59,290 nt of DNA from a virus. Below are positions 1-41,376 of the stretch, in pieces. Under the pieces are notes generated by a model. It searched no databases and was not told the origin of the DNA. It worked only from the letters and a program-made list of their open reading frames with translations. The translations under genes and the position numbers were made by a program. Location of the stretch: the IMG/VR virus record IMGVR_UViG_3300031963_000163, positions 1-59,290 of that record; one strand, given 5' to 3'. The first letter of the stretch is position 1, and every line of letters starts with the position of its first letter.

Positions 1-31
1 TCCCCTGACTTTTTGTCTTTTCCAAAAAAAG

Positions 32-70
32 TTATCCCCAAACCTCGTGTGGAAAACTTTTTTATCCACA
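32..70. other. DnaA-box-like cluster
   Basis: A perfect TTATCCACA lies at 62-70, with one-mismatch relatives TTATCCCCA at 32-40 and, on the other strand, TTTTCCACA at 48-56. Two more perfect copies lie near 1.1 kb. This is the consensus bacterial DnaA box. An origin or DnaA-responsive control region is an inference from clustering only. Confidence 0.35.
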
Positions 71-146
71 CAGACATATCGTCAGGTGGATATCTTGTGT
101 AAGGGACCCTTTATTTTTATATGTTCCCTAACTATGTTTTAACGTA

Positions 147-413
147 ATGGACAAACTGTCGTATGATATAACACTGATTACCCCCGAGCGATGTTCAGTA
201 GAAGTGCTCTTCAAGGTGGGGAACCTGACTGAAAGTTTAGGGATATTATATTTCGAGAAGGCTAAAAGAGGGTACGTAAGAAAACCCATAGGTCTAAACG
301 CATGGGCATGCGTAGATGCCAAGGTGGAAGGACTCTATACAAAAGACGAGTCCATCACCCCAGCTCAGATTATTCAAGAGTGTAGAAAGAGAATTACAGC
401 GTCGGGGTTATAA
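147..413 (+). CDS. Hypothetical protein, 88 aa
   Basis: An ATG ORF of 88 residues with mixed polar and hydrophobic content and no membrane segment, signal peptide or family I recognise. The middle has a GILYFEKAKRGYVRKPIG stretch that could be a beta hairpin, and the C-terminus looks helical (AQIIQECRKRI). The gene is less AT-rich than the tagged genes after 1.3 kb. It ends convergently against the small gene on the opposite strand, overlapping it by a few bases. It has no N-terminal tag. Function unknown. Confidence 0.55.
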   Translation: MDKLSYDITLITPERCSVEVLFKVGNLTESLGILYFEKAKRGYVRKPIGLNAWACVDAKVEGLYTKDESITPAQIIQECRKRITASGL

Positions 414-542
414 CTTCTCCTTAATGATTCTTTTCAGGTCATCAACGTTATTAATGTTCTCATCACGGAACAGGTCTTTCAACCACTGAATTCCCCAAAG
501 GACCACGTACCCAACAATCACAGCTTTAATGAACTTTTTCAT
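408..542 (-). CDS. Small single-pass membrane protein, 44 aa
   Basis: The reverse strand encodes a 44-residue protein starting MKKFIKAVIVGYVVLWGIQW, a clear N-terminal hydrophobic segment of about 16 residues followed by a charged tail ending IIKEKL. The ATG is the only sensible start. It overlaps the end of the gene at 147-413 tail to tail. Such peptides are common among early phage membrane proteins, but nothing here shows its role. Being short, it could be fortuitous. Confidence 0.45.
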   Translation of the reverse strand: MKKFIKAVIVGYVVLWGIQWLKDLFRDENINNVDDLKRIIKEKL

Positions 543-574
543 ATTATGTTATTTTAATTAACAAAGGTCGTTAC

Positions 575-581
575 TATTTAT
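575..581 (+). promoter_or_regulatory. TATTTAT box
   Basis: Candidate phage promoter box; it ends 22 bases before the ATG at 604, a looser spacing than usual here. Confidence 0.3.
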
Positions 582-603
582 CAATTAAACAAATTTATTT
601 TCA

Positions 604-1086
604 ATGCCCGTAGCCCCAAACATTCAGGTGACCCAAAAAGAAGTGGAGGATTCTTATGAGTTCAAACTCATAAAGAAAATCCTTAAGCGTGAGTACCCAT
701 GGATTGTCGACATATTGGTCCCCTCGGATGAGGATATAAATAACTACGGACTAATCTTTCTTCCCATAGTCATCGACCCCTTTCTATTACAACAAATGGA
801 GGGGTGGCCATTTAACTACTACATGAGAGTGTATTTCAGTGGTTATCTAAAAGCCGAAGGACCATACTCATATAGAACATCTTATCTCACAACCGTATAT
901 GATGTCCCACGTGATGAGACAACCCCAATACAGGACGACATAGAAAATACAATGAAAGCCATCTCTATGTCCCCCGCCATTCCACAGGACCTTAAGCTAA
1001 ACAAAGATAGAACCTTTGTGGTCGGGGAGTATGTCCTTAAGAGTATGGATGTCCCTGAAGATGCAGTCTTCTCGAAAAGTACATAG
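604..1086 (+). CDS. Hypothetical protein, 160 aa
   Basis: A 160-residue ORF starting MPVAPNIQVTQKEVE. The first half reads as a helix-rich basic region (FKLIKKILKREYPWIVDI), and the remainder is aromatic-rich with probable strands (FNYYMRVYFSGYLKA). There is no signal peptide, membrane segment or known motif. Like its neighbour at 147-413 it is less AT-rich than the downstream genes. Its stop codon lies inside the first copy of a 16-base repeat (1083-1098). I do not recognise the family. Confidence 0.6.
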   Translation: MPVAPNIQVTQKEVEDSYEFKLIKKILKREYPWIVDILVPSDEDINNYGLIFLPIVIDPFLLQQMEGWPFNYYMRVYFSGYLKAEGPYSYRTSYLTTVYDVPRDETTPIQDDIENTMKAISMSPAIPQDLKLNKDRTFVVGEYVLKSMDVPEDAVFSKST

Positions 1087-1098
1087 GACAAAACGTCA
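1083..1098 (+). repeat. 16-bp direct repeat, copy 1
   Basis: ATAGGACAAAACGTCA; the identical sequence recurs at 1226-1241. The two copies bracket the DnaA-box and C-run region. Confidence 0.7.
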
Positions 1099-1119
1099 TA
1101 ATTAAATAACCAAATTTAT

Positions 1120-1128
1120 TTATCCACA
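1120..1128 (+). other. DnaA-box-like TTATCCACA
   Basis: Perfect 9-base match to the consensus bacterial DnaA box. Confidence 0.4.
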
Positions 1129-1148
1129 GGGGAGGTGGGGATAACTAT

Positions 1149-1157
1149 TTATCCACA
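1149..1157 (+). other. DnaA-box-like TTATCCACA
   Basis: Second perfect copy, 29 bases from the previous one and in the same orientation; just upstream of the C-run cluster. Confidence 0.4.
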
Positions 1158-1160
1158 TAA

Positions 1161-1220
1161 CCCCCCTCTGGCATGGGAGTATACCCCCCTATAGGGGCCC
1201 CCTCCCCCCCGTATCCCCCC
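1161..1220 (-). other. Potential G-quadruplex (C-run cluster)
   Basis: Five C-runs of 6, 6, 5, 7 and 6 bases (1161-1166, 1184-1189, 1198-1202, 1204-1210, 1215-1220) lie within 60 bases. The opposite strand therefore has five G-runs, enough for a stable quadruplex. This is striking in an otherwise AT-rich genome. Function unknown; origin, replication pause or transcriptional control are possible. Confidence 0.5.
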
Positions 1221-1225
1221 TTACT

Positions 1226-1241
1226 ATAGGACAAAACGTCA
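1226..1241 (+). repeat. 16-bp direct repeat, copy 2
   Basis: ATAGGACAAAACGTCA, identical to 1083-1098; followed closely by a run of seven G on this strand. Confidence 0.7.
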
Positions 1242-1309
1242 GTTTGGGGGGGATAATACCTTGAGTAACGCAAAAAAAATTTTTGGGAAAAAATTGTCCT
1301 TTTTTGGGG

Positions 1310-1316
1310 TATTTAT
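1310..1316 (+). promoter_or_regulatory. TATTTAT box (late-type)
   Basis: Ends 15 bases before the ATG at 1332; preceded by a T-rich TTTTTTGGGG stretch. Confidence 0.55.
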
Positions 1317-1331
1317 TGAAAACATTTAAAC

Positions 1332-1718
1332 ATGGCAAAGATTATAAAATTAAGAGAATCTGATTTGAATAGAATCGTTAAAAAGGTTATTAAAGAACAA
1401 AACCAAATTGAGATTGACCCAAAGGATTTGGAAATGCCTGATGATGAAAATTTAAGAAAGCTTTTCACAGGTGAAGTGGAGATGTCTGATGAAATGAAAG
1501 AAAAGACTAAGGAATTTAGAAAACATATGAAAGCCTGTATCAAGGAAAAGAACTTGTATAAGATGGAAGGGTTTTTGGATAACTTGGAAAATAAAAAAAC
1601 GAATGTTATGAATACCCTATTGGCTAACATTGTTGATAAAGGATTGGGGGGAAAGACTCTCTTCCAAGAATTCAATGAACTTAGTGATTGTGTGAATTCA
1701 AAAAGGGATAAGAGATAA
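1332..1718 (+). CDS. Tagged protein, 128 aa (putative virion cargo)
   Basis: The N-terminus carries the window's common tag: a KIIKLRESDL core, then the basic amphipathic stretch NRIVKKVIKEQ. The IKE before Q (about residue 22) matches the I/L-x-E site of T4-type prohead proteases, so cleavage there is a plausible maturation step. The remaining ~105 residues are acidic then basic, helical and Lys-rich (EKTKEFRKHMKACIKEKN), with no recognised domain. The tag of the gene at 3483 is nearly identical. It has its own upstream box and a terminator after it. Packaging is inferred. Confidence 0.8.
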   Translation: MAKIIKLRESDLNRIVKKVIKEQNQIEIDPKDLEMPDDENLRKLFTGEVEMSDEMKEKTKEFRKHMKACIKEKNLYKMEGFLDNLENKKTNVMNTLLANIVDKGLGGKTLFQEFNELSDCVNSKRDKR

Positions 1719-1742
1719 TAAAACAATATTCTATAAACAAGA

Positions 1743-1770
1743 CCCTCTTCAGAAATGAAGGGGGTTTTTT
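1743..1770 (+). terminator. Rho-independent terminator
   Basis: Nine-base-pair stem CCCTCTTCA/TGAAGGGGG with a GAAA loop, followed by a T-run. Confidence 0.8.
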
Positions 1771-1797
1771 CATTTAAAAATTTTTGGAAAATTTTGG

Positions 1798-1804
1798 TAT
1801 TTAT
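1798..1804 (+). promoter_or_regulatory. TATTTAT box (late-type)
   Basis: Ends 13 bases before the ATG at 1818. The upstream TTTTTGGAAAATTTTGG is also present before the box at 2399. Confidence 0.55.
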
Positions 1805-1817
1805 TGGAAAGATTTTT

Positions 1818-2321
1818 ATGAATAGAAGTTATAGTAAAATAAGACACATTCAAGAAGCGAACATCAGATTGGAAAAAAGATTGTTGAAGGAAGATGAATC
1901 TCAAATTATCGACACGATTAATACTGAGCTCTCAACGGTTGGTGAAGAACCTGTATCATCTGAGGATGTACATTTCGCATTAAATGATTGTCCTATTGAA
2001 ACTCCTCCTAACGCTGAAGACAAGGACAAAACAATTCTTCAGAAAATTAAAGCGGAGATTGATAAGATAACTTCAGTTAAGGAAGTAAAAGGTTTTATTC
2101 AAAAGATTAAATCTATTTTCAAAAATAAAACTCAAAGAGAACAAATGGAAATTGTTACTCTTGGTTCAATGGCAATTCCTGTTGTTTTCATTCAAGTGTT
2201 TGCAGGTATTATCATTTTAATGTTGGTTGTTAAATTAATCAAATTAATTGGAGGTGGAGTAAGAACGAGTCCTGAATGTAGAAGAGCGTCGAGAAGAATG
2301 AGAAGATTCGGTCCTCTCTAA
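1818..2321 (+). CDS. Tagged membrane protein, 167 aa
   Basis: I place the start at the ATG at 1818, after the TATTTAT box, rather than at an upstream in-frame ATG. The N-terminus SKIRHIQEANIRLEKRLLKE is a variant tag with two I/L-x-E sites (IQE before A, LKE before D). A helical, Lys-rich middle (residues ~70-120) leads to a strong hydrophobic segment near residues 130-155 (VVFIQVFAGIIILMLVVKLI). The tail is very basic (RRASRRMRRFGPL). One or two membrane passes are likely. A packaged membrane-interacting protein is an inference. Confidence 0.75.
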   Translation: MNRSYSKIRHIQEANIRLEKRLLKEDESQIIDTINTELSTVGEEPVSSEDVHFALNDCPIETPPNAEDKDKTILQKIKAEIDKITSVKEVKGFIQKIKSIFKNKTQREQMEIVTLGSMAIPVVFIQVFAGIIILMLVVKLIKLIGGGVRTSPECRRASRRMRRFGPL

Positions 2322-2343
2322 AAATATATTTTCTAACACAAGA

Positions 2344-2371
2344 CCCTCTTCAATTCAGAAGGGGGTTTTTT
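2344..2371 (+). terminator. Rho-independent terminator
   Basis: Stem CCCTCTTC/AGAAGGGGG-like pairing with a short AT loop and six T; near copy of the terminator at 1743. Confidence 0.8.
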
Positions 2372-2398
2372 GATTTAAAAATTTCTGGAAAATTTTGG

Positions 2399-2405
2399 TA
2401 TTTAT
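2399..2405 (+). promoter_or_regulatory. TATTTAT box, short spacing
   Basis: Ends only 5 bases before the ATG at 2411, predicting a nearly leaderless transcript. Confidence 0.55.
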
Positions 2406-2410
2406 TGAAT

Positions 2411-3133
2411 ATGAAAATCATCATTACCGAAAGACAATTGAAAACCTTGAAAGAGCAAACTAAGGTTTCACCTACATTTACAAACGTATCGGCAACCAAT
2501 GCTCAAGCAATGAAAAATTTTGCTAACCAAGTGGCATCTAAAGGTACGACTCCAACCAATCAACCAACAACTAAGCCAGTTCAAAAAACAACCACAAGTG
2601 GTAGTACATCAACTAACCTGAATTTGAAAGGTAAGACTTTATCTCCAAAAGCAGCTCCTCCAAAATATGGTATCAATAGTCCTGAGTTTATCCACCAATG
2701 GAATGGTATATACTCTATTGGTGCAAATTTTGTTCCATTGATTGGTCCCTTTGTATCTTCGGGAATTAGTCTTTATGATGCAAAACTTCATTATGATGAG
2801 GGAGACAAAATTTCTGCGGGGGTCATGACTGCATTTGCATTATTACCATATGTTGGTTCAATTGCTTCAAAAATACCTGGAGTAAAACAACTTGGTCAAA
2901 AAGGTATGGCAGCATTGGCTTCTAAAATTGCAAAAGGAACTCCAATTACTGATGTTGCTGAGTTAGGTGTTATGAGAGCAATCGATACAAATAGTGGTCT
3001 CATTCAGAAAGCTCTGAAGTACGTAGGTGACGACGTTGCGAAGTTAGGACAAACAGCTGTTGATGTGGCTAACAACGAAGTATCTCAAGCCAAAACAATT
3101 GAATATATTAAAAAAGTGGCGGCAGCTGCTTAA
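2411..3133 (+). CDS. Tagged membrane-active protein, 240 aa
   Basis: The tag is short: KIIITERQLKTLKEQ, ending LKE before Q. Residues ~20-85 form a Thr/Ser/Gln/Pro-rich linker. Residues ~95-160 contain two hydrophobic glycine-rich helices around an NFVPLIGPFVSSGISLYDAK motif and AFALLPYVGSIASKI, separated by a YDEGDK turn. The same hydrophobic-hairpin plan (VPLIGP or LPVVGP, then SLYDA or NLYNA) recurs in the tagged protein at 13991. The fold resembles helical hairpins of pore-forming or pretoxin domains. My reading is a packaged protein that acts in the host membrane; no exact family is recognised. It is followed closely by the gene at 3138. Confidence 0.75.
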   Translation: MKIIITERQLKTLKEQTKVSPTFTNVSATNAQAMKNFANQVASKGTTPTNQPTTKPVQKTTTSGSTSTNLNLKGKTLSPKAAPPKYGINSPEFIHQWNGIYSIGANFVPLIGPFVSSGISLYDAKLHYDEGDKISAGVMTAFALLPYVGSIASKIPGVKQLGQKGMAALASKIAKGTPITDVAELGVMRAIDTNSGLIQKALKYVGDDVAKLGQTAVDVANNEVSQAKTIEYIKKVAAAA

Positions 3134-3137
3134 CAAC

Positions 3138-3455
3138 ATGGAATACATCATCACTGAGAGTAGACTAATAAAAATAATTGATAAGTATATCACTGATACG
3201 GTGGGGGAACTACATGTTGTTGATTCAACCAATGTGAATGCAAGAGAAGGTGACTTTGAAATTATCGATGATAAGGAAGACCTTGTCTTTGAATTTGTGG
3301 ACCACCACTTGGGAATTAAACAACAACTGTACTTAACTGTTAAAAATTATTTGAACCTGAATGATTCTGAAACTGAGGGAATATTCCAAAGATGGTTTGA
3401 ATATAAATTTCCCGACGAACTTATCCTCAATGCATATTGTTCGATATACTACTAA
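3138..3455 (+). CDS. Tagged small protein, WF-domain paralogue, 105 aa
   Basis: The ATG at 3138, four bases after the previous stop, gives the tag-like start EYIITESRLIKIIDKYI. The rest is acidic with a C-terminal helix carrying FQRWFEYKFPDEL. Proteins at 5099, 19878 and 20254 share this plan: tag or tag-like start, acidic middle, and a C-terminal motif with W-F and N-F. I treat the four as paralogues. There is no clear I/L-x-E-Q end to the tag, so cleavage is less certain. Function unknown. Confidence 0.7.
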   Translation: MEYIITESRLIKIIDKYITDTVGELHVVDSTNVNAREGDFEIIDDKEDLVFEFVDHHLGIKQQLYLTVKNYLNLNDSETEGIFQRWFEYKFPDELILNAYCSIYY

Positions 3456-3460
3456 CGAGA

Positions 3461-3467
3461 TATTTAT
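3461..3467 (+). promoter_or_regulatory. TATTTAT box (late-type)
   Basis: Ends 15 bases before the ATG at 3483. Confidence 0.55.
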
Positions 3468-3482
3468 TATAAAAACAAATTT

Positions 3483-4097
3483 ATGGCAAAGATTATAAGA
3501 CTAACTGAATCAGATTTGAACAGAATCGTGAGAAAAGTTATTAAAGAACAACGTTCAAGTGTTAATGAGGTTGTTCCCTTAGCTGCGGCCGCAGTTGCAG
3601 GTGCTGGTGCACTTGGTACTTTGGCGTACAATTGGTGGAGGAATAATTATAATAGTCTTCCAAGTGAGCAAGTTAAAGAATTCGTTAATATTTGTAATAA
3701 ATCGAATGTTCAACCAACAGTACAAAGTAATCAAATTGCAGATAAACTAAAAGATGCAATTGAATATCAAACCTTATGGATTTTTGGGGGAACAGATGAG
3801 GCGGGAATTGAAACTGCTCTGAAATCACTACCAACGTTTGATGAGTTTTGTAAAGTTGTTAAATCATATTCAAATTCTTATGGAAGTTTCTTTGACGATT
3901 TGGATAATGATGTATCATCTTCCGAAATGGAAAAATTCATGAGACCTTTGAGAGATTTGTTGATGAAACAAAATCAATCATCACCAAAATCTCAACCAAC
4001 AGGAGGTGCAGTTGCTGCAGGAATTAAATCTGCAGTACAAAAAGCTCAACCAACAGGTGGGGCACCAAAACCTACTCCGAAAACACCTGTAAGATAA
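3483..4097 (+). CDS. Tagged membrane protein, 204 aa
   Basis: The tag KIIRLTESDLNRIVRKVIKE before Q is nearly identical to the one at 1332. It is followed by an Ala/Gly-rich hydrophobic segment (VVPLAAAAVAGAGALGTLAY, about residues 29-48) ending in NWWRNN, a likely membrane helix. The middle is soluble and acidic. The C-terminus contains two QPTGGA-containing repeats and a Pro/Lys-rich tail. If the tag is removed, the hydrophobic segment would sit close to the new N-terminus, as in an ejected membrane protein. No family recognised. Confidence 0.75.
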   Translation: MAKIIRLTESDLNRIVRKVIKEQRSSVNEVVPLAAAAVAGAGALGTLAYNWWRNNYNSLPSEQVKEFVNICNKSNVQPTVQSNQIADKLKDAIEYQTLWIFGGTDEAGIETALKSLPTFDEFCKVVKSYSNSYGSFFDDLDNDVSSSEMEKFMRPLRDLLMKQNQSSPKSQPTGGAVAAGIKSAVQKAQPTGGAPKPTPKTPVR

Positions 4098-4120
4098 TTC
4101 TATCAAAACAATATTAAGAA

Positions 4121-4147
4121 CCCCACCACTTATAGGTGGGGTTTTTT
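4121..4147 (+). terminator. Rho-independent terminator
   Basis: Stem CCCCACC/GGTGGGG with an AT-rich loop and six T after the gene at 3483. The ~190 bases from here to 4334 hold no gene I can support. Confidence 0.85.
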
Positions 4148-4286
4148 ATTTGTGGGAAATTGTAATTATATTTCTTATTTCACATAATGGTGGAGTGAAC
4201 TCATATCCATTATCAAAGTTTTAGAAATATATTTCCAAAACACGACCCCCCTTTTTAAAAAGCTCCCCTATAGTCAAAAAAAAATT

Positions 4287-4319
4287 TTTGGAAAATTTTA
4301 TGGAAATTATCTATCTTTG
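4287..4319 (+). promoter_or_regulatory. Host-type promoter (TTTG-N21-TATCTTTG)
   Basis: TTTG at 4287-4290 and TATCTTTG at 4312-4319 match the Bacteroidota primary-sigma consensus. It lies 14 bases before the first ATG of a run of five small untagged genes, suggesting early expression by host polymerase. Confidence 0.7.
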
Positions 4320-4333
4320 TGAAAAGTAGTAGT

Positions 4334-4432
4334 ATGGATTTTTCAATTATAATTTTCTTTGGTGTAACTCTTCTCATATTTGGGGGGACAATACTTCATG
4401 AGTATTTGTTTGATAAAAAAGATGGGGAGTAA
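4334..4432 (+). CDS. Small membrane protein, 32 aa
   Basis: An ATG 14 bases after a host-type promoter opens a 32-residue peptide: MDFSIIIFFGVTLLIFGGTI and a short charged tail. It is almost entirely one hydrophobic helix. Its stop overlaps the next start (TAATG), which supports translation as the first gene of the 4334-5071 operon. Role unknown. Confidence 0.6.
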   Translation: MDFSIIIFFGVTLLIFGGTILHEYLFDKKDGE

Positions 4433-4638
4433 TGGAATTTCCAAAGAAAATGTATCCCCATCTTTATGAACTTGAGAAAATGGAATTTGAAACACAACAA
4501 GATAGTTGGTTGTTTCGAAGGGATTATAAGCATGAACTATGGAAGGAGTATCGAGATAGACTCGACTTTATTGAACATAGAGTTATTGAACTTGGGGGGA
4601 ATAATGGAGTACATAAAATAGAGGAATATGGACAGTGA
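4432..4638 (+). CDS. Hypothetical protein, 68 aa
   Basis: A 68-residue charged, aromatic-rich helical protein (LYELEKMEFETQQDSWLFRR) with no membrane segment, translationally coupled to the peptide before it by a TAATG overlap. It contains a run of Arg, Asp and Glu typical of small soluble phage regulators or modifiers, but no family is recognised. The next gene starts inside its 3-prime end. Confidence 0.6.
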   Translation: MEFPKKMYPHLYELEKMEFETQQDSWLFRRDYKHELWKEYRDRLDFIEHRVIELGGNNGVHKIEEYGQ

Positions 4639-4729
4639 AATTTTTTTTAATTTAATAGGTGTGGCGTGTTTGGTTGTCGTCATGGGAATTGTGTATATCA
4701 TATGGAAAATGAAAACGAACGACAAATGA
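4628..4729 (+). CDS. Small membrane protein, 33 aa
   Basis: The ATG at 4628, overlapping the previous gene, gives a peptide starting MDSEIFFNLIGVACLVVVMG and continuing IVYIIWKMKTNDK: one membrane helix with a basic tail, so the C-terminus is probably cytoplasmic. It ends in an ATGA overlap with the next gene. It is the second tiny membrane protein in this operon. Confidence 0.55.
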   Translation: MDSEIFFNLIGVACLVVVMGIVYIIWKMKTNDK

Positions 4730-4923
4730 CCGTAGAAGAATTACTCGCAAAAAAACTCTCCAACGAAATTGACGTTCAAGTTTTAACCGAAGTATTAAGA
4801 ACAGCAAATGTCTCTGAAGAAGAGATTCAAGTTAATATTGAAAAACTAATTGATTCACAGGACACTGAATTTGAAAGACAGTTTATGGGAGGAACAAAAC
4901 AAATACATGGAACCGAAAATTGA
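4726..4923 (+). CDS. Hypothetical acidic helical protein, 65 aa
   Basis: I choose the ATG at 4726, in an ATGA overlap, over upstream in-frame ATGs that would run through the preceding peptide gene. The protein is acidic and helical. Its core (VLTEVLRTANVSEEEIQVNI) closely resembles part of the next gene product (RRLLEAANVPQDEIEEIMD), so the two look like a tandem duplication. No known domain. Confidence 0.6.
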   Translation: MTVEELLAKKLSNEIDVQVLTEVLRTANVSEEEIQVNIEKLIDSQDTEFERQFMGGTKQIHGTEN

Positions 4924-5071
4924 TATTGAAATTATAAGAAGACTTCTTGAAGCTGCAAATGTCCCCCAAGATGAGATTGAGGAGATTATGGACCGTGAGT
5001 ATAAAAAACACGAGAGTATTAGGTATAGAGCCAAACAACTTATTACGAATAGTCATGCCCACAAGTTTTAG
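4907..5071 (+). CDS. Hypothetical protein, tandem paralogue, 54 aa
   Basis: The ATG at 4907 overlaps the end of the preceding gene by 17 bases in another frame. The N-terminal half (IEIIRRLLEAANVPQDEI) is the paralogue of the upstream protein. The C-terminal half is basic (RYRAKQLITNSHAHKF). Last gene of the host-promoter operon. Function unknown. Confidence 0.55.
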   Translation: MEPKIDIEIIRRLLEAANVPQDEIEEIMDREYKKHESIRYRAKQLITNSHAHKF

Positions 5072-5086
5072 AAGTGGGGGTCACGG

Positions 5087-5093
5087 TATTTAT
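5087..5093 (+). promoter_or_regulatory. TATTTAT box, short spacing
   Basis: Ends 5 bases before the ATG at 5099. Confidence 0.55.
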
Positions 5094-5098
5094 AATTA

Positions 5099-5428
5099 AT
5101 GAAATATCTTATATCTGAGTCTCGTCTTAGTGATTTCATTTATGAATATCTAACTAATGAATATCACCCCGATTATAATTGGGGACCTGAGCTTCATGAC
5201 TTTTATAGAAAGGACATTGCAAAACACGGGTTTTATGATTTTGAGATTAATGATAGAAGAGCGTATGCTTATCGTGGGCAAGGTAGAGAACAGTTATTAG
5301 TTAGAACATGGGTTTCAGAAAAACTTAATAGTCTCTTTGGTGATGCATGGAAACCTGTATTTGTTAAATGGTTTGAAAACAATTCAGGATTACCTGTTAG
5401 GGAACTATTTGAGTGGGATATGGATTAG
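5099..5428 (+). CDS. Tagged small protein, WF-domain paralogue, 109 aa
   Basis: Tag-like start KYLISESRLSDFIYEYL, then an aromatic and acidic body and a C-terminal motif FGDAWKPVFVKWFENNSGLP. That motif matches FGDKWKEPFRKWFIRNF in the 19878 protein and is related to those of the 3138 and 20254 proteins. The conserved pattern is F-G-D-x-W, then K-W-F-x-x-N. No I/L-x-E-Q cleavage end is visible in the tag. Own TATTTAT box with short spacing. Function unknown; four copies in one window suggest a family under diversification. Confidence 0.7.
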   Translation: MKYLISESRLSDFIYEYLTNEYHPDYNWGPELHDFYRKDIAKHGFYDFEINDRRAYAYRGQGREQLLVRTWVSEKLNSLFGDAWKPVFVKWFENNSGLPVRELFEWDMD

Positions 5429-5469
5429 GAGATTTTATTCTTCTTTTTGGTCTGTATTCGCAAACCGAA

Positions 5470-5484
5470 ACCGACTCCGTCGGT
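5470..5484. other. GC-rich hairpin
   Basis: ACCGAC-TCC-GTCGGT, perfect six-base-pair stem in a GC-rich island (5465-5550) inside an AT-rich genome. Confidence 0.5.
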
Positions 5485-5519
5485 ATTTTCCCCCGAAATC
5501 CTCCGACCGCCGTCCCCGA

Positions 5520-5532
5520 CCGACTTCGTCGG
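5520..5532. other. GC-rich hairpin
   Basis: CCGAC-TTC-GTCGG; same stem as the hairpin at 5470. No ORF with phage-like composition crosses this island. Confidence 0.5.
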
Positions 5533-5555
5533 ACCGAATATCCCCCGTCGTAGAA

Positions 5556-5575
5556 ACCATCTCAGAAAAAGGGGT
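5556..5575 (+). repeat. 20-bp dispersed repeat, copy 1
   Basis: ACCATCTCAGAAAAAGGGGT; further copies at 5856-5875 (one mismatch) and 6926-6945 (identical). Lies just before the TATTTAT box of the gene at 5593. Confidence 0.8.
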
Positions 5576-5580
5576 CGTGA

Positions 5581-5587
5581 TATTTAT
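5581..5587 (+). promoter_or_regulatory. TATTTAT box, short spacing
   Basis: Ends 5 bases before the ATG at 5593. Confidence 0.5.
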
Positions 5588-5592
5588 TGGTG

Positions 5593-5856
5593 ATGAATGT
5601 AATTGTTACTGAACCACAACTTTCTGTTTTTTTGAGAAGAAGGGTTTCCCCTGAGGAACTTGAAGAGATGGTGAATCATACAAAAAAACAAATCGATGGT
5701 GGTGAAAAAGTTGGTTATGCCGTTAGAGAATCTATACGGTCGTTTTTGGACAAAACTCTTCCCGAAACCCACGATGTTGCAGAGTATTGGAATTATTATC
5801 ATATGTTGGAAAAACCACTTGTTGCTTATATCAAGTTTCAGCTAGGTTTCAGGTGA
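5593..5856 (+). CDS. Tagged small protein, 87 aa
   Basis: The ATG at 5593 is preferred over an upstream TTG because it starts the tag-like sequence NVIVTEPQLSVFLRRR. The rest is a helical, charged protein (PEELEEMVNHTKKQIDGGEK) with an aromatic C-terminus. No I/L-x-E-Q end is seen. It lies between two copies of the 20-bp repeat. Function unknown. Confidence 0.65.
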   Translation: MNVIVTEPQLSVFLRRRVSPEELEEMVNHTKKQIDGGEKVGYAVRESIRSFLDKTLPETHDVAEYWNYYHMLEKPLVAYIKFQLGFR

Positions 5857-5875
5857 CCATCTCAGATAAAGGGGT
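5856..5875 (+). repeat. 20-bp dispersed repeat, copy 2
   Basis: ACCATCTCAGATAAAGGGGT, one mismatch from the copies at 5556 and 6926. It starts at the stop codon of the gene at 5593 and lies 5-prime of the glycosyltransferase gene. Confidence 0.8.
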
Positions 5876-5917
5876 AAGTCTATTTCATTTTATTTTTTGT
5901 TTTCATATTATTGGACT

Positions 5918-6853
5918 ATGAAAAACATTTTTATAATCGGCACTTTTCCTAATAAGGATTATAAACTTACTTTGTTGGAATCTTGTATCGATTCTGTGAA
6001 ATCAATGGGATATGATATTTTGGTGGTTTCTCATCTTCCATTAAAAGAAAGTATTTTGAATAAGATAGATTATTTTTTATACGACAAGGAAAATAAATTG
6101 ATTGATAATGAACTCTCACCTCCTTGGTTTTTTTTCACAGATATTTTTTCCGTTAAGTGCATATCAATAAAAGGTCATGCACTAGCAGTCTCAAAAAACA
6201 TTATGAACGGAATAAATTTTGCAAAATCTTTGGGTTATAATTTTTTTTTCTATTGTGAATCAGATTGTATATTTTCTGAAAACGACATTGTAAAAATGGA
6301 AATTCTGAAAAATGAAATGTTTTGGAATCATAAAAAAGCTATTTTTTTCTCAACCACTTTGGAGGAAAGAAGAATATTTGAAACCATTTTTTTTGGGGGA
6401 GAAGTAGATTATTTTCATGAAAATATTTTTTTCCCGTTGGACCAATCGGATTTAGAGGGAACCACGATTTCGTTAGAAAGATTTATGTATAAAAAATACA
6501 ATCATTTAATTGATAACTTTTTAATAACCGAGGGACACTCTAAAGATTATTTTTCGGATAGTAAAATAAACATAGATTTCACTAAATTTATGGTTGAGGT
6601 TTTTTTATCCAATAGATACCCGTACCTTCATTTATTTATTAGAAACCTCAAAGAAAACCCATCATCAATGTTTGTACAAATAAATGATGACCCAATAAAA
6701 GAATTTACACCAGGTTATTGGTCAATAATGGAAATCAAAAACATACCAAACTTAAATGTAAAAGTAGAATTGGATGGTGAAGTATTTATAAAAAACTTCA
6801 ATTTTGAAGACCGACTATCATTTTCAAAAAAAGGGTTCATCAGTTTTAATTAA
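5918..6853 (+). CDS. Putative glycosyltransferase (GT-A-like), 311 aa
   Basis: I start at the ATG at 5918 (KNIFIIGTFP). The fold pattern is GT-A-like: an N-terminal beta strand and nucleotide-binding loop (IIGTFPNKD), then LVVSH, then an acidic motif FYCESDCIFSEND near residues 107-119 that could supply the metal-binding Asp. The body is very AT-rich, with long T-runs unlike its neighbours, and copies of a 20-bp repeat flank the gene. That suggests acquisition as a cassette. Likely roles are modification of phage or host surface glycans or of phage DNA; the substrate is unknown. No tag. Confidence 0.6.
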   Translation: MKNIFIIGTFPNKDYKLTLLESCIDSVKSMGYDILVVSHLPLKESILNKIDYFLYDKENKLIDNELSPPWFFFTDIFSVKCISIKGHALAVSKNIMNGINFAKSLGYNFFFYCESDCIFSENDIVKMEILKNEMFWNHKKAIFFSTTLEERRIFETIFFGGEVDYFHENIFFPLDQSDLEGTTISLERFMYKKYNHLIDNFLITEGHSKDYFSDSKINIDFTKFMVEVFLSNRYPYLHLFIRNLKENPSSMFVQINDDPIKEFTPGYWSIMEIKNIPNLNVKVELDGEVFIKNFNFEDRLSFSKKGFISFN

Positions 6854-6925
6854 AGATTATAAACGATATTTGAAATATGAAAGAGTCTTTGTTACTTATG
6901 TGAGGTACAAGTTGGGTCTAACTTG

Positions 6926-6945
6926 ACCATCTCAGAAAAAGGGGT
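6926..6945 (+). repeat. 20-bp dispersed repeat, copy 3
   Basis: Identical to the copy at 5556. The octamer GGGTCTAAC occurs both before and after it (around 6914 and 6942). Confidence 0.8.
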
Positions 6946-6954
6946 CTAACCTAA

Positions 6955-6961
6955 TATTTAT
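6955..6961 (+). promoter_or_regulatory. TATTTAT box (late-type)
   Basis: Ends 16 bases before the ATG at 6978. Confidence 0.55.
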
Positions 6962-6977
6962 TTTAAATTGAAATTAC

Positions 6978-7337
6978 ATGAAAAGAATTATAAAGTTGAC
7001 CGAATCTGATTTGAAAAGATTGGTTAAAAAAATAGTTAAAGAGCAAGATGAACTTGGGTTGGATGAACCACACTATCAGTTTGATAAAGAGGTAGGGTTA
7101 GTTCTATTGGTGGGAGCCAGTTCAAGACAAGTTAAAAAAGTATTGAGAAACTTGCCAACTACTTTAACATATTTGTCGTTAAGAGATTGTGACTTTGCTG
7201 ACTTTGACGGTATTGATTTATGTTCTTTCGGTACATTAAGGAACGTGAATCTAATAGGTACTGAAAATAATTTGGAAGAACAAGGATATGAATGTTTGGA
7301 CAAATGGGATGAAAGAGGTCAATATGGTACATTGTAA
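6978..7337 (+). CDS. Tagged LRR-like protein, 119 aa
   Basis: The tag RIIKLTESDLKRLVKKIVKE before Q is one of the clearest in the window, although VKE has Val rather than Ile or Leu before x-E. After it, residues ~50-95 show two leucine-rich-repeat-like strands (TTLTYLSLRDCDF and GTLRNVNLIGTENN). That suggests a minimal LRR fold for protein binding. Own upstream box and a terminator after it. I infer a packaged binding protein, perhaps neutralising a host factor on entry. Confidence 0.7.
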   Translation: MKRIIKLTESDLKRLVKKIVKEQDELGLDEPHYQFDKEVGLVLLVGASSRQVKKVLRNLPTTLTYLSLRDCDFADFDGIDLCSFGTLRNVNLIGTENNLEEQGYECLDKWDERGQYGTL

Positions 7338-7358
7338 TTGAAAAAAGATTTTAAATAT

Positions 7359-7384
7359 AACCCCTCCTTAGTGAGGGGTTTTTT
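7359..7384 (+). terminator. Rho-independent terminator
   Basis: Stem AACCCCTC/GAGGGGTT followed by T-rich sequence. Confidence 0.85.
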
Positions 7385-7429
7385 ATTTGATTTGTAATTT
7401 TGTTTGTCTATACTTTCAAAAAAAGGTAT

Positions 7430-8020
7430 ATGGCAGAATATTCAGCAAAATGGAAAAAATCCTTTGAGAAAAAATTCTCAAAAGCTTTATCTCAAATTAG
7501 AGAACTCGAACAAGAGTATAAGGAAATGGTTGAGACCAATCCTGACGAGTGGGACCTAAATTATCTTTATGTTGATAATGGAACGCTCGAATATGATAGT
7601 CCTTCTGATTTGACCATTTATCATTATGATGGTGCTGAAGAAGGTTCAAAAGAATATGTTGAAATTGGTGTTAGTGGTTCCAAAGCATCAAGTTATGCAT
7701 TCAAATTTTATTCTCTACAAGAACTAATTGATTTTAGAAACAAATTGATTGAATCAATTGATAAGTTTGGTAGAGTTCCTGAAGAAACCAAAAATGTTAT
7801 TTCTGACGACTGTGAGGACGAGGAAGGTTGGGAAGATAATGAGGAGACCGAGTACACAATTCAAGCTTCAAGAACTTGTGTTCAATCATGGACACATACA
7901 GTGATGGCAAGGTCTTCATGTGAAGCTTATAGAAAAGTTCAAGAGGACCCCGATGGTTCAACCCACGATGAGAACGATGACCTTGACCAATATGGTGAGA
8001 TTGATTATGAAATTATTTAA
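7430..8020 (+). CDS. Hypothetical acidic protein, 196 aa
   Basis: The ATG at 7430 opens MAEYSAKWKKSFEKKFSKAL, a basic helix, followed by a coiled-coil-like stretch (LSQIRELEQEYKEMVE). Residues ~115-160 are strongly acidic (SDDCEDEEGWEDNEETE). The C-terminus (SWTHTVMARSSCEAYRKVQE) resembles a small alpha-beta domain, but I cannot name it. No tag and no TATTTAT box close upstream. A terminator follows. Confidence 0.65.
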   Translation: MAEYSAKWKKSFEKKFSKALSQIRELEQEYKEMVETNPDEWDLNYLYVDNGTLEYDSPSDLTIYHYDGAEEGSKEYVEIGVSGSKASSYAFKFYSLQELIDFRNKLIESIDKFGRVPEETKNVISDDCEDEEGWEDNEETEYTIQASRTCVQSWTHTVMARSSCEAYRKVQEDPDGSTHDENDDLDQYGEIDYEII

Positions 8021-40839: not shown

Positions 40840-41376
40840 TTAGTCTTGTTTTATTAAACCACATTTAAGACATTCTTCTTCACCATCACCATCTTTATCA
40901 CCCCATACATGTTCACATTGACGATGTTCAAAATACATGTCGATTATACCATCACCATCTTCATCTATCCCATCCATTACACCATCACCATCTTCATCGA
41001 TTTCTACACCGACTTGGGGGATGACTTGGGGGGTGACTTGGGGGGTAATTGATTGTTGCTGAGGTGATTGAACACTACCATCTTGGGTATTAGAAAACGA
41101 TACACCATCTTCTTCGTCCATTTTCTGAACCAACATTTTGTCTTTGTCGGTGTCGCTGAACCAATAGTCGATAATTTTACCATAAGACCCAATAAACGCT
41201 CCTAGTAAAAGGAGTAATAATTCTTTCCATTCACCACTAATTGCGCTTTGTTCAAAGATGGCCATAAAAATGGCACCCATTATAACAACAAATCCACCCA
41301 AAACTAAGAAGGTAATCCACCACCTTCTTTTCATCATGGAGTTTAATAACTCTTTAAATCCTGTGTTTGGTTGCAT
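40840..41376 (-). CDS. Membrane protein with Ca-binding repeats and zinc-ribbon-like tail, 178 aa
   Basis: Two membrane segments (WWITFLVLGGFVVIMGAIF and KELLLLLLGAFIGSYG) are followed by a Gln/Pro/Val-rich stretch and two D-x-D-G-D-G-type loops (EIDEDGDGVMDGIDEDGDGI), like thrombospondin-3 or dockerin Ca-binding loops. The tail (CEHVWGDKDGDGEEECLKCG) has Cys-His pairs that could bind zinc. It sits between the CsgG-like and small coat-like genes, so it may anchor the apparatus in the inner membrane. Confidence 0.6.
   Translation of the reverse strand: MQPNTGFKELLNSMMKRRWWITFLVLGGFVVIMGAIFMAIFEQSAISGEWKELLLLLLGAFIGSYGKIIDYWFSDTDKDKMLVQKMDEEDGVSFSNTQDGSVQSPQQQSITPQVTPQVIPQVGVEIDEDGDGVMDGIDEDGDGIIDMYFEHRQCEHVWGDKDGDGEEECLKCGLIKQD

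Follow-up and report, generated by a model that had tools for sequence, protein, structure and literature searches.

A conserved locus of T4-like jumbo phages, with clustered short boxes and C-tracts, as a candidate replication origin or initiation-control region

The origins of uncultured jumbo phages have rarely been located. In bacteria the DnaA box needs a C at position 6, and the 9-mer TTATCCACA matches the box of E. coli. The phage T4 origin oriE has 12-nt iterons with the small gene repEA alongside, and RepEB has been implicated in the activity of this origin; at oriE, oriF, and oriG the transcribed strand switches nearby, and R-loops prime replication at oriF and oriG, as described in the available portion of a T4 review (PMC3016281). 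The same portion presents the T4 origins as having no common motif and the role of the oriE iterons as undefined (PMC3016281). In mitochondria, the G-tract of CSB II, the primer element of the heavy-strand origin, reads G6AG7 or G6AG8 in humans (PMC8780183), and in the parts available of two papers it is proposed to make transcripts terminate and primers form, within a model that is unsettled (PMC11346463, PMC8780183). A small literature search, which is no proof of absence, did not find a paper on an origin such as the one considered here.

The window that we analyzed is a stretch of 59,290 bases, record IMGVR_UViG_3300031963_000163, and represents a fragment from a T4-like jumbo-phage lineage with related contigs of 309-326 kb. 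Positions 1-8000, compared as DNA with annotated phages, gave 0 matches, and tRNA was the sole RNA family matched at Rfam gathering thresholds by the window and the related loci L007 and L010. Apart from the window, 33 contigs carry a confirmed relative of ORF1, a small gene of the locus described below. The locus nearest to that of the window is L007, carried by the 111-kb contig G001, and the remoter relatives lie on contigs of up to 326 kb. In the 321-kb contig G003, we scanned 63 large proteins against Pfam (out of 233 ORFs of at least 150 aa) and 32 of these ORFs against PHROGs. Single proteins matched Portal_T4, Gp23, Terminase_6N, and DNA_pol_B in Pfam, and the PHROG matches included a clamp loader and the phage's own DNA polymerase (family B by Pfam). 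Its T4-type head proteins, family-B polymerase, and clamp loader mark G003 as a T4-like phage that encodes its own replisome. The Pfam scan of the G003 proteins also detected an outer-membrane beta-barrel domain and a Por secretion-system sorting domain, which hint at the host, and these T4-like jumbo phages therefore probably infect Bacteroidota. The G003 contig is probably near complete, because it has its start and end sequence in common with G002 and shows a terminal overlap of 200 bases that lies in a collagen-like repeat. ARAGORN called 24 tRNA genes and a tmRNA in G003; the tmRNA (tag AEEATVVA) and 23 of the tRNA genes lie in a 15-kb stretch (125442-140972), and one further tRNA gene lies at 161 kb.

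The window's first 1.3 kb belong to a conserved locus and make up its right-hand portion, the contig starting inside the left noncoding arm. From left to right the locus consists of a G-rich tract, GGGATTATCCC, boxes with a palindrome, ORF1, ORF2, boxes, and C-tracts; on the left the palindrome is followed by the AT-rich CTTTATTTTTATATGTTCC and then by ORF1, and on the right the C-tracts are followed by a second palindrome, GGGGGGATAAT, and an A/T block. Relatives extend about 500-700 bp further to the left, with ACGATAT/TATCGT repeats, a G-rich tract, and GGGATTATCCCC (L007 and L010); the extension of these two loci also carries GGGGATTATCCCC, and a G-rich block in which about 54 bases are identical between them.

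The preliminary description of this DNA had listed three perfect copies of TTATCCACA, at 62, 1120, and 1149, and near matches at 32 and 48, and we found all five as reported. In the part of the left arm that the window contains (1-146, + strand; alignable with 19 other loci), the near matches are TTATCCCCA at 32-40 (+) and TTTTCCACA at 48-56 (-), and TTATCCACA occupies 62-70 (+). These boxes are followed by the imperfect palindrome GACATATCGTC at 73-83, which reads TGACATAGTGTCA or TGACATAGCGTCA in relatives, and by CTTTATTTTTATATGTTCC at 109-127 (+), directly before ORF1, which is conserved in the alignment of the loci and could possibly be a promoter or an unwinding element. ORF1 (88 aa, 147-413) and ORF2 (160 aa, 604-1086) are both encoded on the + strand. 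The first copy of a 16-bp repeat, ATAGGACAAAACGTCA, lies at 1083-1098 (+), followed by TTATCCACA at 1120-1128 (+), a box TTATCCCCA at 1136-1144 (-) that was absent from the preliminary description, TTATCCACA at 1149-1157 (+), and the C-tracts at 1161-1220, which are G-tracts on the - strand. The second copy of ATAGGACAAAACGTCA, at 1226-1241 (+), repeats the first exactly, as had been claimed; it is the conserved palindrome (TGTCAGAATGTCA in relatives) and is inverted relative to the left-arm TGACATTnTGACA. Around it, the conserved series GTATCCCCCC ... GACAAAACGTC ... GGGGGGGATAAT at 1211-1257 has arms able to pair. The single-strand fold of 1158-1262 does not surpass those of shuffles, 74 of 200 of which folded equally well, and a right-arm hairpin was dropped for this reason; a left-arm hairpin (CTGTAG/CTACAG in L075 and L099) was dropped because other lineages are without it, as judged by eye on the alignment. 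The right edge of the locus is the conserved leader of the next gene, AAAAAAATTTTTGGG, at 1263-1331 (+). The shifts in composition and gene content that had been noticed near 1.3 kb are also real, with GC skew passing from -0.09 to +0.19 and tandem small-gene cassettes beginning at 1332.

The boxes are concentrated at the locus. Exact TTATCCACA occurs 6 times in the 59,290 bases, where 0.97 would be expected, and 0 of 100 shuffles reach 6. Using TTWTCCMCA, a post hoc motif that was widened once the data had been seen, 6 of the 10 sites in the window fall inside 1,126 bp (32-1157), where the remainder of the contig would predict 0.077 (Poisson P 2.8e-10). The locus likewise holds 7 of 13 sites in G001, 7 of 17 in G003, 8 of 23 in G009, and 7 of 18 in G010. 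Clustering is thus beyond chance in these four records and the window, with clusters that span 1.1-1.8 kb and Poisson P values of 1e-10 to 1e-14 for the post hoc motif. G008 and G011 have no TTWTCCMCA cluster at the locus; there it is TTATYAACA that clusters, with 4 of 50 sites (P 8e-5) and 3 of 9 sites (P 5e-4), respectively.

The five C-tracts previously assigned to 1161-1220 lie at 1161-1166, 1184-1189, 1198-1202, 1204-1210, and 1215-1220. The strong G-quadruplex potential predicted for them was borne out, since 1182-1230 has the top G4Hunter score of the window (-2.84; four regions reach 1.5) and 1198-1220 alone in the window fits the strict four-tract pattern. In G001 and G003, as in the window, the strongest G4Hunter site lies in the right arm. 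Strict four-tract patterns occur in the right arm of the window, L048, L056, and L061 and in the left arm of G001 (1/1) and G003 (1/2), and L057 and L060 contain none. We surveyed the C-tract element in 29 sequences, the window and 28 of the 33 ORF1 loci, having left out L070-L074, whose contigs are identical to that of L069 across the locus. Every one of the 21 sequences that extend far enough has the element (20 by pattern and L098 by eye), a count that includes the near-duplicates L077/L078/L079, L084/L085/L087, L090-L092, L095-L097, and L093/L100; the remaining 8 of the 29 contigs end before it. A G-tract block of the form GxAGy was found in the window (G7AG5), L048 (C7TC6, i.e. G6AG7), and L056 (G7AG7), and is interrupted by other bases in L057/L060, L061, and L098. 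L059 and L060, otherwise very similar contigs, differ in the length of a C-tract (14 C at ~3123-3137 and 7 C at ~7389-7395, respectively), which we attribute to slippage, natural or from sequencing. At 41011-41046, in a coding region, three 12-bp repeats of GACTTGGGGGGT make up the window's second-strongest G4Hunter site.

Noncoding parts of the locus are well conserved. The window is identical to L007 at 140/146 aligned bases of the left arm, 55/56 of the right box part, 90/99 of the C-tract part, and 68/69 of the leader, compared with 228/267 in ORF1 and 326/483 (67.5%) in ORF2, so that the noncoding arms, at 91-99%, stand above ORF2. The comparison with L010, the next relative, runs counter to this: the C-tract part is identical at 91/101 bases (90.1%), but the left arm, at 97/146 (66.4%), is less conserved than ORF1 at 212/267 (79.4%). 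Across the 19 loci and the window in which the left arm can be aligned, GGGATTATCC is nearly invariant where contained, and both arms were found in the lineages whose contigs reach them.

The two arms also resemble each other. Both contain the palindrome TGACA-N3-TGWCA and ATTATCCC, and the left arm read forwards shares with the right arm read backwards ATTATCCC and TGACATT-TGACA and, in the window and L007, also GTTATCCCCA-CCT-GTGGA-AA. In 12 of 15 lineages, no more than 7 of 200 shuffles attain the local alignment score of the inverted comparison, and the similarity fails in L069, L081, and L084. Direct similarity outscores inverted similarity in 4 of the 15 lineages (L069, L084, L088, and L097) and equals it in 2. 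In 12 of the 15 lineages, then, the arms are partly inverted copies of each other. G-tracts lie on the + strand in the left arm and on the - strand in the right arm, so that the G-rich strand faces inwards from both sides. The palindrome pattern derived from these loci matches 6 times in G003, with 4 matches falling in the locus and 1 of the 4 within ORF1; it matches once in G001 and twice in the window.

ORF1 and ORF2 have 22 and 14 invariant columns, respectively, across 8 lineages each. AlphaFold2 modeled ORF1 as four strands followed by a helix (mean pLDDT 75) and gave ORF2 a mean pLDDT of 86. Neither protein matched annotated phages, or PHROGs at E <= 0.01; weak matches to unnamed PHROG families had E values of 0.02-0.1 for the two proteins, and of 0.02-0.05 for ORF1. 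Fold searches at E <= 0.001 returned no match for ORF1 in PDB or for ORF2 in PDB and BFVD, and a second structural comparison gave best Z scores of 6.8 (ORF1) and 5.2 (ORF2), a range that the tool deems common. A likeness of ORF1 to the T5 PC4-like protein 4bg7 (Z 3.9, rank 32) was considered, and we draw nothing from it. Bacterial genomes contained 56 stretches that fit the ORF1 patterns, 0 of which were confirmed. It is their position that suggests ORF1 and ORF2 as possible initiators, and ORF1 may be an initiator or an ssDNA-binding factor. Three relatives have a minus-strand ORF with an HEYTH motif, a possible metallopeptidase, between ORF1 and ORF2 (L010 5473-5889, L048 5343-5954, and L056 420-947), and the window is without it. 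The ORF of L010 weakly matched SprT-like and DUF6782 models, below the curated cut-offs.

The preliminary description had proposed a candidate replication origin. This is still the best reading, and it is strengthened because the locus is conserved across the lineages in which it was found and because boxes cluster there in each contig tested; the identity of the boxes as DnaA boxes and the skew inflection are the parts that did not hold. Our tentative proposal, to which we give somewhat less than an even chance, is that T4-like jumbo phages use this locus as a replication origin or initiation-control region, with a phage-encoded initiator.

The main rival to this proposal, which we consider unlikely while granting it a real chance, is a transcription-control region without a role in replication initiation, in which the boxes and palindromes serve as operators for phage regulators that control ORF1, ORF2, and the long rightward gene block. 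Consistent with this, the locus of G003 heads a block of 42 called genes in the same direction (192353-217940), in several lineages a box adjoins the AT-rich element that precedes ORF1, and palindromes would suit dimeric regulators. However, boxes and C-tracts are also present beyond ORF2, operators need no repeated G-tracts on opposite strands, and each downstream cassette has its own leader, like that at 1776-1810, without boxes.

The tandem small genes of these cassettes (window 1332 to ~7340) have in common an N-terminal peptide of the form M.KIIxLTESDLxRxVxxVIxEQ, with IxE/LxE at its end, and peptides of the same type occur at L007 5719, L010 6786/7980/8606/9119, L048 6750, and L061 7268. 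The shared peptide resembles the capsid-targeting peptides cut by the T4-type prohead protease, and the genes may encode internal proteins of the head that the phage ejects into its host. An intergenic unit repeated at 1739-1810 and 2340-2410 comprises a terminator-like hairpin, AAGACCCTCTTC..GAAGGGGGTTTT, and the leader AAAAATTTTTGGAAAATTTTGGTATTTATTG.

It is distinctly unlikely that the locus is an origin at which host DnaA acts through true DnaA boxes. Perfect E. coli-type TTATCCACA is present in the window and in most lineages compared, and there are box clusters in five records, but the box sequence is not kept across relatives: at homologous places the boxes read TTATCAACA, TTATTAACA, or TTATGAACA, without the C at position 6, in L057/L060, L081, and L090-L094, and G008 and G011 cluster TTATYAACA instead. 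Two loci, L093 and L099, mix box forms within one arm. We had first read L057/L060 as a concerted switch of all boxes, and dropped this because of these mixtures, for which 'drift' is the safer word. The rule common to the boxes is nearer to TTATNNACA. Pfam DnaA models had 0 matches in G000, G001 (both fragments), and G003, and control models matched in 10 and 13 of 14 genomes. The loss of the position-6 C in homologous boxes and the failure to find DnaA in these three phage records both weaken the earlier identification of the sites as DnaA boxes, which is probably wrong. Host DnaA could possibly bind where TTATCCACA stands, but this is not the conserved rule. No T4-type phage is known to use DnaA. 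The available portion of the T4 review mentions DnaA 0 times (PMC3016281).

The preliminary description had itself named the lack of a skew inflection as counting against an origin, and in part this applies. The cumulative GC skew of the window has its minimum at 1224, and the genes to the right lie on the + strand for ~19 kb; the minimum is therefore explained by gene orientation. In G003 the raw cumulative skew has no inflection at the locus, and strand-corrected third-position skew does not favor the site, with residuals of 661.3 for the best pair (54/292 kb), 683.8 for the best pair that includes the site, and 685.5 for a constant. A skew would presumably not have to appear in T4-type phages, given their several origins and their recombination-driven replication.

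We consider it very unlikely that the locus is a packaging, recombination, or genome-end site and not an origin. There is a large excess of contigs that end close by, 11 of the 34 that carry ORF1 ending less than 1 kb from it against 1.12 expected. However, these ends are scattered from ORF1 to the C-tracts, contigs of near-identical lineages run through (L077/L078 versus L079; L093 versus L100), and the 321-kb contigs continue across the locus, with their ends in the collagen-like repeat. Because the ends scatter and near-identical lineages run through, assembly breaks are likelier than a genome end; they probably occurred at shared or C-rich sequence, and a physical genome end at the locus was rejected on account of the lineages that run through. 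It is scarcely credible that the locus is a decoy, titrating host DnaA so that replication of the host stops, since the TTATCCACA clusters of several lineages would fit it but the G-tracts, palindromes, conserved genes, and drifted boxes would be left unexplained.

If the locus is an origin with a phage-encoded initiator, a phage protein, perhaps ORF1 or ORF2, would bind the boxes and open AT-rich DNA. Transcripts entering from each side would form R-loops on the G-rich strands, the R-loops would prime the phage's own family-B polymerase, and forks would leave in both directions. The plan that we favor is that of T4 oriE with its rep genes, perhaps combined with G-tract priming as in the mitochondrial CSB II model. 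In its most specific form, the proposal is a bidirectional origin made of two inward-facing inverted arms with CSB II-like G-tract blocks, where transcripts from outside would yield R-loops or hybrid quadruplexes and from these primers, and where ORF1 and/or ORF2 would open the DNA at drifting TTATNNACA boxes. We regard this combination as quite unlikely to be right as a whole; if true, T4-like phages would have a new design of origin that converged with that of mitochondria. The interest of the locus lies in the depth of its conservation and in its testability. The site, which has drifting boxes and two candidate factors alongside, is conserved across lineages; it makes a concrete, testable candidate origin and could be used to find out whether replication of the phages is primed at G-tracts.

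Compared with known systems, the locus is like bacterial oriC in having clustered TTATCCACA near AT-rich DNA, and unlike it in that the boxes drift to non-DnaA forms, DnaA was not found in three records, and a skew inflection is lacking. With mitochondrial CSB II it shares the GxAGy pattern, L048 having exactly the human G6AG7 given in the available part of the source (PMC8780183), a match that may be coincidence. This is a likeness of sequence between unrelated genomes and, if meaningful, would surely be convergent. From T4 oriE the locus differs by its G-tracts and by ORF1 and ORF2, which have no PHROG match to a named phage family. As at T4 oriE, in so far as the available portion of the review describes it (PMC3016281), we find in a T4-like phage repeated short sites beside small conserved genes, near a switch of the transcribed strand.
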